Positions 43,162-48,556 of a stretch of 64,000 nt of DNA are shown here, piece after piece. Source of the DNA: Progne subis subis (Eukaryota; Chordata; Aves; Passeriformes; Hirundinidae); NCBI GenBank assembly GCA_022316685.1, contig JAKJHU010000766.1, forward strand, positions 1 to 64,000. Direction: 5' to 3'. Below the pieces are notes generated by a model, which did not search any database, was not told the origin of the DNA, and saw only the letters and a program-made list of their open reading frames with translations. Each line of letters begins with the position of its first letter. Within the stretch, counting starts at the first letter, position 1. Both the position numbers and the translations under genes were made by a program.

Positions 43162-43524
43162 TGTAGAAGGATTTTTGGGACAGACACAGAGAGGCCTCAC
43201 AGTTTTTGGGAAAGCTCTGGTTTCCTAGCAAACCGTCAAGGACAATGAGCCTGAGAACCAGTGTTTCCCTCAGATAAGTTGAAAACAAGTAACTGCAAAG
43301 GAATGCTTATGCAGATACCATTAGCCAATAGTATAGCCGCTTGAGGCTTGTGGATACCAGGAGGTGGCCAATAGCAAGTAGTAAACGCCGTGTGAACAGC
43401 TTATGCACAAGAATTATATATGTATAATAGAACCCTGTGTACCCTCAATAAATGAGCATTCACCATTACTTTTGGGAAGAGTGTGACTGACTCCGTCTGC
43501 TCCCTGCGTTTTCTTTCACCTTTA
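43162..43524 (+). repeat. 5' LTR of ERV C
   Basis: TG start; tatatatgtataatag as a TATA-like element; AATAAA at 43,447-43,452; end near cacctttaa, followed by ttggtgctgcat at the expected primer-site position (tRNA not identified). Confidence 0.75.
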
Positions 43525-43822
43525 ATTGGTGCTGCATATCATACCTTGAGGTGAGGACCTGGGGGAGAAAAAGAGCGGTGGGAGGCTGAGCAGAAAGACG
43601 CTGGCTCGCCGACAGATGCAGCTGCATTGGTGAGGGACCCCTGGAAAAACAGCGGAAAGATGCTGATCTACCAAGGGATGCAACAAGCATTGAGGTAGGA
43701 GCTCGCCGTCCTTGCAAATGCATATTGCGAGGTGAGCCGGTAAGGGGAGCAGAGCGGCAGCTTCTTGAAAAAAGGTGGAATGTGCTGAGTACTCCCTTCC
43801 TGCCCCAGAGAAGACGGCAAGC

Positions 43823-44894
43823 ATGGAATGTGACTTTGCTGCCGCAGTTAAATTATTTATTAATATACTCTCTGAGAGAGGAAAAACAGTAGCAGAAAAT
43901 GTGCTGCACAAGCCAGTTAACTGGGCGTGGGGAAATGGACATTTAACAACCCCGTGGCACTGTGAAGTTGGGAGGCGCCGCGGGCCCCGTGCTCCCTCCT
44001 GCCGCCCCCGGCGCCCCGGCACTGTCACTGGCCAATGCCCGGCTCGCCGCTCCCAGCCCGCAGACCATCCCCGTCACCTGAGCTACGGTGCGCTGCTCCC
44101 GCACCGCCACCACCACCACCAAGCCGGCTTGGAGCTTTTCTCAGAAGCAAGGCGCTCCCCCAATCAAAGGCTTGACAGCAACCCAGTGTAGTACAGTAGC
44201 CAAAATGCTTCAAAAACCCTCTGGAGCCACTCCCAGCCCTACTGCTACCACTACGCATGTGCCATGTGCCCCCCCCTTTTCTGGCTGTGCCCAAAGAGAC
44301 CCCGGTCGACCAAGAGAGGGGAACCCGTGACCCTGCTGTCGACCACCTTCCCCTGACAATGTTCCGCTGCCAGACGAATTAGAGGAGGATCCCCGATGAT
44401 AGAGCACTGCTTCCCCCAGCAGAACCCCCGGCAGAGCCCACGATTGGTTTAAAAGAACTGACTGAGCAAATTCAGGTGGTATGCAACGCCTGGATGAAAG
44501 GGCACATGCAGCAGCTGAGCTGCTATCCATGACAACTGTTAATGGTCAAGATGAGCCAACAACTTTCACCTCCAGTTAACTCCAATGCAACAATTTGCTA
44601 GAACAAACTGCAGAAAGTAGTTCCCAGGCAACGCCTTCGCCTGCTCCACCTGTGACTCAATGGTCCAAAATTATAGATGATTGCTGTACTAGAAGGACAG
44701 TGGGAACCTGCAGGACACATGGCATGTCCTGTAGCGTGTCCTGTCGTGTTCAGAGATGGCAATCCTGTGTGTGAGCAGCATGAATGGAAAATCTTGCAAC
44801 AGGCAAAAAAAAAAATACAGTAAAGGTGCATGATATGAAATCGGAAAGTTCTCGAGCAATGTTAGATTGGATTCATACTGCAGATATCATTTCT
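43823..44894 (+). pseudogene. gag fragments of ERV C
   Basis: The matrix start is ATG 43,823 (MECDFAAAVKLFINILSE); the frame remains open to 44,191 but becomes Pro/Arg/His-rich. 44,640-44,894 carries broken capsid N-terminal pieces (VFRDGNPVCEQ, SRAMLDWIHTADIISPA) in more than one frame. Capsid sequence stops exactly where the CEPT1 similarity starts. No intact protein. Confidence 0.65.
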
Positions 44895-45873
44895 CCAGCC
44901 TGGACTGCCCCCAATCTGATCACCATCATCAAACTGTTAATAAATATATTTACAACTCTGTTATTAGTATGTTACTGCTCAACATCTTCAGGGCAGGCGC
45001 CTTCCGGGACATTCATTGCTTGTGCCTGTGGCATTCCAGTCCCTAGATGCTACAGATGGAAAACAAGCAAGAAGGACAAATAGCAGCACTCCGTTAACAG
45101 AGTTTTTTGATCATAGCTGTGATTCATTGTCCACAGTCTTTGTGGTTTTGGGAACTTGTATTGTTGTGCAGCTGGGTCACCAACCCTGATTGGATGTTCT
45201 TCTGTTGTTTTGCTGTGACATTCATGTTTTACTGGGCACACTGACAGACGTACGTCTCAAGAACTCTGCACTTCGGCATGACTGATGTGACTGAAGTACA
45301 AATCTTCACAATAATCATGCATTTACTGGCAGTGATTGGAGGAACATCTTTTTAGCAATCTCTGATTCTAAGACTGAATATTCAAGTGAAAATACTCCCA
45401 GCTCCTTGTACTGTAGCAGGAACCGTATTCTCCTGTACAAACTGAAGCTGGCAAAAATAGATCCACTATAGCAGGAACAAGTGTCCTCTCACCTTTTCTC
45501 CATATTGGCTCCGTGATTGTCTCGACTGCAATGATCTACGAGAAATCTGCTGTGCAGCTCTTTGAGGCACCTCTGCCTCTACATCCTGACTTTTGGCTTT
45601 GTGTCTGCCAAGATCACAAATCAACTGGTGGTTGCTCACATGACCAAGAGTGAAATGTATTTATATGACACAGCATTCATAAGCCCAGCATTGCTGTTCC
45701 TTGACCAAGTGTTTTAATAGCTTTATTGATGAGTATATTGTCCTCTGGATTGCCCTGATCCTGTCCTGTTGACCTGCTCCGATACTGTGTCAGCGTGTGC
45801 AGCCAGAATTGCTGCCCACCTGCACATCCACGTGTTCCGCATCAAGGGCTGCCCCATGCCCTCGAACCACACT
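44895..45873 (+). pseudogene. CEPT1: Intronless CEPT1 copy captured in ERV C
   Basis: CEPT1 is choline/ethanolamine phosphotransferase, a multispanning ER and nuclear membrane enzyme that makes phosphatidylcholine and phosphatidylethanolamine from CDP-choline/ethanolamine and diacylglycerol. The copy reads WTAPNLITIIKLLINI, then IACACGI, and in the next frame the CDP-alcohol phosphotransferase signature DATDGKQARRTNSSTP...FFDHSCD (45,046-45,123; the signature Gly is Thr here). STVFVVLGTCI, IAGTSVLSPFLHIGSVI, AHMTKSEM and HLHIHVFRIK follow to the C-terminus. It spans roughly residues 86 to the end (about 330 codons) without introns, broken by many shifts, stops and a ~27-base deletion near 45,446. 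It matches CEPT1 better than CHPT1 (NLITII, IACACG, STVFVVLG, HVFRIK). No poly(A) tail follows. The 5' boundary lies inside retroviral capsid sequence. Confidence 0.85.
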
Positions 45874-45879
45874 AGGGAT

Positions 45880-46830: not shown

Positions 46831-46849
46831 ATGCTGAACAGGGTCACAG

Positions 46850-48176
46850 TAAGCCTTCTGCACAGTGAACACCACAAGCCCTCTGAAGATAAAAAGCCCG
46901 ATGGTCAGTTCCGGAGAAGATAAGAGGAACACTTCTGGCCGGAGCAGCTGATCTCAAATTAATCCCACACTGACCGATCTCCAAGGCCCTGGAATCTGTC
47001 ACTCTGAAACCTGCTGGTCAGTGATCAGGACACCTCTGAGGTGAATTCAACAACAGCTGCACCCAAGCCTTTGAGCTTTGCATCTGGACCACAATGGGAA
47101 CCAAGTAAATGGACTCGGCCAGCAAGGAAGGAAAAGAAGGAAGAAGGATCATCAAGTCCTTGCTGAGACAGCTGGTGGTTGAGGCCGCTGGTGAACAACG
47201 CCCTCCTGACCCAGACTGGGTTGTAGCATGCATTATTGGTCACCAAGGCCCCTTGGGATCATTGGAACTTTCCCAGGACTTGCATGAGTGGCAAGAAAAA
47301 GAGCGTCCTCAGTGTCAGGGAGTAATAGTTATTGAAGTGAGCTGCGGAGTTTGTGGTGCATGATTTGAGAGAGAGACACCAAAGCTTTGGCGTGAGGGTG
47401 GTTTGTGTGACCATTGCTATAGTGGTACCCTTGGTGCTTTTCATCAAGCAGCACAGGTAATGTTGGGATACCTAACCTTGTTCCTGGAGATTTTGGTGGA
47501 GTGGCAGATTGGAGATTTGCGCAGACAGCGTGAGCCATTAAAAAAGGAATATGGCAAGCCCACATGGTAAAACGCTCTCGTGTGTTGTGTGCCTTCTTCT
47601 CATGGTGTCAACAAGTGTTGCAGGATCCCCTCAGTTAGCTCATTGTATAGACGTGGGACATCCCAAATTCTGGTTCCAGGCTAGGACAGTGTTAACATCC
47701 ATGTTTATACCAGGAGCAACAGCCGCCAGAGCAATGACTACATTAAAGCAGATAGCATGCTGGACCAAATCAGAATTGAACGTGACTAGCCAAATTTTAG
47801 ATGAGCTATCAGTGGATGTTACCAGTGTTAATCATGCTGTTTTGCAAAACCGTGCTGTGATTGATTTTTGCTTTTAGTGCATAACCATGGGTGTGAAGAG
47901 TTTGAAGGAATGCTGCATGAACCTGTCTGATCATTCTGGATCAATTCACAAAAAATTGCAATTAATGAAGAACAAATTACATTATTTAAAAGAAAGTGAT
48001 GATGCATTTAGAGATTAGTTAAGTAGCCTTAGGATTACGGGATGGCTGAAGTTTGGTTTTAAGCAAGTGTTTGTTATATTATTACTTGTATTTGTAGGAT
48101 TATTAGTACTCAGGTGTGTAATGTCGCGTATTAAGAATATGTTGCGTAAGACAATATCTAATGCTTAGCTTGTGCA
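46850..48176 (+). pseudogene. env remnant of ERV C
   Basis: 47,109-47,363 is an open N-terminal region of unrecognised role. From 47,560 a hydrophobic leader-like stretch leads almost directly to a fusion-peptide-like segment (FIPGATAARAMTTLK) and the heptad region ending LQNRAVIDF at about 47,870, i.e. most of the surface subunit is missing. A cysteine cluster region (GVKSLKECCMNL-like, in another frame) and a membrane anchor follow to 48,170. Several stops and shifts break it. The arrangement suggests a covalent gamma-type transmembrane unit. Confidence 0.6.
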
Positions 48177-48197
48177 AAAAAAAAAAAAAGCAGGAAC

Positions 48198-48556
48198 TGT
48201 AGAAGGATTTCTGGAGATAGAAACAGAGAGGCCTTGCAGTGTTGGGAAAATGCTGTTTGCCTTAGCACTCCAAGGTCGAAGAGTGTGGGAATGAGCCGTT
48301 GGCCCCTGAACAAAGTTGTAAACAGGTAACTGCATAGGGATGCTTATGCAGATAACATTAGCCAATAGTATAGCCCCTTAGGGTTCATGGACGCCAGGAG
48401 GTAGCCAATACAAGTTGCAAAATGCCATGTGAACAGCTTATGCATAAGAATTATATGTATAAAGAACCCTGTGTACCCACAATAAACGAGCATTCACCAT
48501 TACTTCTGTGAAGAGCCTGACTGACTCCGGCTGCTCCCCGAGACATCACCTTTACA
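48198..48556 (+). repeat. 3' LTR of ERV C
   Basis: Collinear with the 5' LTR but clearly diverged by substitutions and indels, so the element is old. AATAAA at 48,481-48,486; end tttaca. It is preceded by an A-rich purine tract at about 48,177-48,196. Confidence 0.8.

Follow-up and report, generated by a model that had tools for sequence, protein, structure and literature searches.

We analysed a 64-kb stretch of DNA from the songbird Progne subis subis (hereafter the window: positions 1 to 64,000 of JAKJHU010000766.1, the start of the contig that we call C2638). An initial annotation had placed here, at 43162 to 48556, a retroviral provirus carrying a captured copy of the host lipid-synthesis gene CEPT1. 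We compared this element with the genome from which it comes (1.166 Gb searched); below, W denotes the window copy and its type, and X (for example, the copy on contig C894) and Y denote other copy types. Between two long terminal repeats (LTRs), the element contains a gag-side sequence, a CEPT1 segment that continues into the 3' untranslated region (UTR), and a fragment of the envelope transmembrane subunit (TM) of the avian sarcoma and leukosis virus (ASLV) type:

43162..43525, + strand: 5' LTR, TGTAG...CACCTTTA; the 5' flanks of the copy groups switch at LTR base 1
43527..43544, + strand: primer-binding-site-like stretch, directly 3' of the LTR, starting TGG
43823..44893, + strand: broken gag-side sequence with an ATG at 43823, named gag by its position
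44784..45083, + strand: open frame of 99 amino acids across the join, from the gag side into CEPT1's own frame; the join falls at residue 37/38
44894..45875, + strand: CEPT1 coding segment without introns (human residues 80-415, ending with the stop-codon bases), broken by stops and frameshifts
45876..45988, + strand: first part of the CEPT1 3'UTR (over 45823-45988, identity to the end of the host exon plus 3'UTR is 92.9%)
45989..46378, - strand: solo-LTR-like insertion, a TG...CA element with the target site duplication AATAAT at 45983-45988 and 46379-46384
46385..46501, + strand: CEPT1 3'UTR, continued (46379-46501 is 96.0% identical to the host)
46480..46900, + strand: block that is 96-100% identical in all 40 places scored (the best 40 of 214 candidates)
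47542..47877, + strand: envelope TM fragment, ASLV type (PDB matches 5h9c and 4jpr)
48198..48556, + strand: 3' LTR, a direct-repeat match to the 5' LTR

The bounding LTR pair that had been annotated was borne out: the two LTRs match as direct repeats in three blocks (43172-43504 against 48209-48538, with identities of 76%, 81% and 91%). Several X copies read TGGCGC at the primer-binding-site-like stretch. A purine run that lies 5' of the 3' LTR in Y counts in favor of a proviral origin. As the initial annotation stated, env lies behind CEPT1 and pol is missing. The envelope fragment aligns with 34-35 residues of ASLV TM (E about 1e-5), and a separate protein search found no relative of it at the cut-off. 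The frames that lie between the two LTRs showed no pol (Pfam was run on selected frames), and the host segment stands where viral genes would be. Along the gag side, W and X are 77-98% alike in a patchy manner, and no piece of it matched a viral structure in PDB.

Two further observations concern the surroundings of these parts. Within the gag side, a GC-rich stretch (43971-44230) is 86-98% alike in W and X, and Y mostly has other GC-rich sequence there. Directly after the 3' LTR lies an integrase fragment (Pfam rve at 48525-48707; region 48525-48958, + strand) that belongs to a further endogenous retrovirus (ERV); the 5' flank of the element in the window does not resemble the other half of that ERV.

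The CEPT1 segment and its junction with the gag side

The host CEPT1 gene lies elsewhere in the same genome (C1358, 187929 to 216370, + strand). Compared with the host exon, the window begins to match at 44894 (91.3% of 104 bases) and shows no match upstream; this agrees with the annotated end of gag and start of CEPT1 and sets the junction at 44893/44894. The first bases of the match, TCCAGCC, are present at the join in both of the sequences joined, in line with the earlier suggestion of a shared ccagc. No duplication was seen at this 5' join of CEPT1.

Using human CEPT1 in tblastn, we found that the window covers residues 80-415 of 416, collinear and split among five frame pieces that contain several stops, and that copy X covers residues 80-416. 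Two separate window pieces match the CEPT1 structure 8gyw in PDB (E 2.3e-23 and 1.2e-13). The captured part, from codon 80, is about 81% of the coding sequence, which is less than the near full-length copy that had been described. The N-terminal 80 residues match two places in the genome: C1358:187929 (78% identity) and a site on C1335 (63%) that is probably the paralog CHPT1. The description of the copy as intronless holds at both of the host exon boundaries observed. The host exon that spans the capture start ends at a splice donor, where the window reads through into the next CEPT1 codons, and the last host exon (C1358:216251-216370) likewise follows without an intron; the segment has the sense orientation inside the LTR pair. 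Residue 376/377, where the match to the last host exon starts, is read through in 148 of the 150 C-terminal matches scored (the best 150 of 320 candidates, counted by eye), and these copies look intronless as aligned. The two remaining matches are the host exon itself and one that starts later.

The host stop-codon bases are found at 45873-45875, with one base lost just 5' of them. The window CEPT1 differs from the host at 23 of 383 compared sites; X differs at 16 of 100 and 9 of 109 sites in two short pieces, the first of which has a misaligned stretch. The catalytic CDP-alcohol phosphotransferase motif (human DGKQARRTNSSSPLGELFDHGCD) lies inside the kept segment; by eye, its fixed residues are complete in X, and one is lost in W. 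The predicted product is likely a Gag-linked lipid-synthesis enzyme body. The two copies read through CEPT1 by alignment, W and X, are both broken.

Past the stop codon, the host bases remain collinear and are interrupted at 45989-46378, indicating that a cDNA extending into the 3'UTR was captured and that the solo LTR arrived later. This solo-LTR-like element (~390 bp) is flanked on both sides by the six host bases AATAAT and matches another locus in antisense (84% of 385 bases). In the X copy on C894, CEPT1 and the following block lie 394 bases closer together; therefore, the solo LTR is absent from that copy. The 46480-46900 block, which was compared with the host to 46501, is probably more CEPT1 3'UTR. 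In agreement with the annotated lack of a poly(A) tail, neither poly(A) nor a target duplication for CEPT1 was seen up to 46501; the 3' end lies beyond the compared part.

Copies of the junction and their flanks

The junction recurs across the genome. With the 99-residue frame as query, we scored the best 150 of 323 first-look candidates and found by eye that all 150 cross the join, starting at or before query residue 33 and ending at or after residue 70; these are places, not proven separate loci. Similarly, all 40 scored matches of a 401-base DNA query (the best 40 of 209 candidates) cross the join. Nine of the 150 places, on eight contigs, lie at coordinates of at least 400 kb. Stops occur inside many of the 150 matches and are absent from some, with open frames of up to 459 codons. 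In three contig pairs (C488/C368, C432/C431 and C2770/C2632), the copy has near-equal coordinates, and these pairs may be haplotypes or recent duplicates. The initial annotation, which described one provirus, was thus right about the LTR-bounded capture and missed both the large family to which it belongs and the solo LTR.

A first search returned 19 copies that are 98-100% identical to the window and 21 that are 94-96% identical. All eight of the other 98-100% copies that were fetched with both sides match the window flanks over kilobases, which indicates segmental duplication. For the 94-96% group, we fetched 20 of the 21 5' sides (C274 was left out): 17 of type X and three of type Y, nine of which we aligned with W. 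All 20 share a flank beside the LTR that is not that of W. We considered Y as a third integration site and rejected it, as alignment gave the X flank; C2271 and C1247 also carry this XY flank. A third 5' flank was found in C713; the same sequence occurs unoccupied in L043, from which C713 departs at the LTR start. There are thus at least three 5' flanks (W, XY and C713), each switching where the LTR begins, which integration predicts; exchange inside LTRs could give the same pattern. Segmental duplication accounts for much of the copy number, and alternative haplotypes perhaps contribute as well.

Origin of the element

These results make retroviral transduction of CEPT1, in the form of a Gag::CEPT1 fusion, highly probable; with somewhat less assurance, we favor several separate integrations of the fusion virus. 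As the sequences suggest, a retrovirus with an ASLV-type envelope would have acquired CEPT1 mRNA from codon 80 to the stop, plus at least part of the 3'UTR, and this segment would have replaced the end of gag and pol to give an in-frame fusion. The joining step may have been RNA template switching, given that both sequences carry TCCAGCC at the join. The fusion virus would have depended on a helper for pol, would have been copied and integrated at several sites, and its fusion would presumably have been translated. Segmental duplication of gene-rich arrays would then have produced more copies, ectopic exchange would have swapped segments among them, and the window copy would be a dead member of the family.

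Several observations weigh against this reading. The parent virus without CEPT1 was not met: all 40 scored gag-side matches, obtained with a query ending 5' of the join (the best 40 of 209 candidates), adjoin CEPT1. The gag-side pieces gave no Pfam match above the cut-off, just a sub-threshold BTB, so that the gag label of the initial annotation is a positional name without profile support. The 3' join of CEPT1 to the virus was not reached in the part compared. In no copy were both flanks found together with a matching target duplication; no such duplication was seen at W or Y, the copies read at both ends, both of which are old or rearranged and uncertain at the LTR 3' end. The two flanks of W are unlike one interrupted site, no LTR was seen at the expected distance in C2117, and the unplaced contigs may include both haplotypes. 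Finally, the LTR pair of W (Kimura two-parameter distance 0.265 over 351 sites; 0.136-0.150 for the Y pair) is too diverged for its CEPT1, which remains close to the host, and the window copy has the look of a family member that was rearranged. A single insertion date cannot explain the divergences within W, whereas exchange after insertion and a chimeric W can, judging from the alignments. Because the LTR and CEPT1 divergences disagree and segments were exchanged, the age of the window copy cannot be read safely from its LTRs, and we give none.

Such exchange also underlies a related scenario, in which one capture was followed by one integration, and the remaining copies are products of segmental duplication and of ectopic recombination, the latter having moved the CEPT1 cassette into older family proviruses. 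Consistent with it, LTR similarity between W and X is about 80%, compared with 94% for CEPT1 (67 differences over 1092 sites, with one X copy) and 97-98% for 46480-46900; in the segment 44087-44312, the two are 93-98% alike, compared with 35-38% for Y in the segment's first part. In addition, W and X have stops and deletions in CEPT1 in common, and W shows no target duplication. (Purifying selection as the cause of the high W-X identity in CEPT1 was set aside, as both copies share inactivating lesions.) Against a single integration, the three 5' flanks switch at the LTR start, the fusion lies at or beyond 400 kb on eight contigs, and the C713 flank leaves the unoccupied repeat paralog exactly there. 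We regard this scenario as possible and the less probable one; it shares the capture step with the transduction that we prefer, so that our confidences in the two overlap.

We also considered a 5'-truncated CEPT1 retrocopy made by a long interspersed element (LINE) and inserted into an ERV that later lost pol. LINE machinery often leaves 5' truncations and a 3'UTR, as seen here. Nevertheless, a simple LINE retrocopy is a poor fit, because there is no poly(A) in the compared part (which stops short of the 3' end), no duplication seen at the 5' join and no pol seen, and because the same dispersed join occurs with at least three 5' flanks. Moreover, the window reads in frame from the gag side across the join, the avian LINE CR1 seldom mobilises mRNAs, and an extra deletion of pol would be required. 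We thus consider this origin improbable, and the initial preference for a transducing retrovirus over a LINE copy gains support from the recurrent join and from flanks that switch where the LTR begins. That the element reflects an assembly artefact or chance similarity is scarcely credible: many of the contigs are short and repeat-rich, but the join is the same in every scored place, large contigs included, and the CEPT1 segment differs from the host gene at the 23 sites noted above.

Neighbouring sequence and known captures

Elsewhere in the window, Pfam identified olfactory receptor, C2H2 zinc-finger and protein-kinase frames (7858-8793, + strand; 20783-21358, + strand; 33560-35101, - strand), the kinase frame being presumably PIM-like. 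The part of PMC4377847 consulted cites an expansion of PAK3- and PIM1-like kinase families in zebra finch. A second ERV (30477-32423, - strand) has a TLV_coat-type envelope (Pfam, E 1.4e-56) and adjoins a 361-residue frame of gag-like look without a significant profile match. A diverged tandem array occupies 53530-56600, with a unit of about 760 bases and copies about 74-84% alike.

Consistent with the initial remark that no CEPT1 capture is known to have been described, searches of the open-access literature that combined CEPT1 with terms for birds or retroviruses turned up no report of such a capture, judged in part by titles and the opening lines of abstracts. Among viral contigs (46 stretches), no relative of the CEPT1 pieces was confirmed, and none was found in phage records. 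Known retroviral captures are mostly of growth, signalling or adhesion genes. In the acute transforming avian retroviruses that make Gag-onc proteins, a host cDNA is joined to gag, and a helper is needed. The element resembles these viruses in carrying host cDNA in a retrovirus; it differs in that CEPT1 is not a growth-control gene and is seen here just as a germline fossil family. The excerpt consulted of PMC13297096 gives v-src as a captured host gene in an avian virus. Crocodilian ERVs carry captured KIT-ligand (CrocERV29) and nectin3 (CrocERV31), according to the portion of PMC4299795 consulted, and are likewise ERV groups with captured host mRNA in several insertions. There, however, the cargo is a ligand or adhesion gene, the frames are reported as conserved, and there is either no loss or a lost env. 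The CEPT1 element instead has a membrane lipid enzyme on the gag side, lacks pol and keeps an env fragment, and the copies read are broken. Intronless host gene copies near repeats are also known from songbirds: PMC4377847, as far as consulted, refers to 28 intronless candidate genes beside LTRs, LINEs or short interspersed elements, which are unnamed in that part, and its main text does not include CEPT1.

We can speculate, with little confidence, that the Gag-fused phospholipid-synthesis enzyme was made and active, altered membrane lipids at particle formation and aided the virus, and that the fusion lineage spread to many loci as its own germline family. The presence of a Gag-joined membrane-lipid enzyme in so many places suggests that a retroviral lineage can bring along host cargo besides oncogenes during its germline spread. 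With so many copies, the family is a natural record of one capture, in which the join, the order of decay and the exchange between copies might be traced across songbirds.
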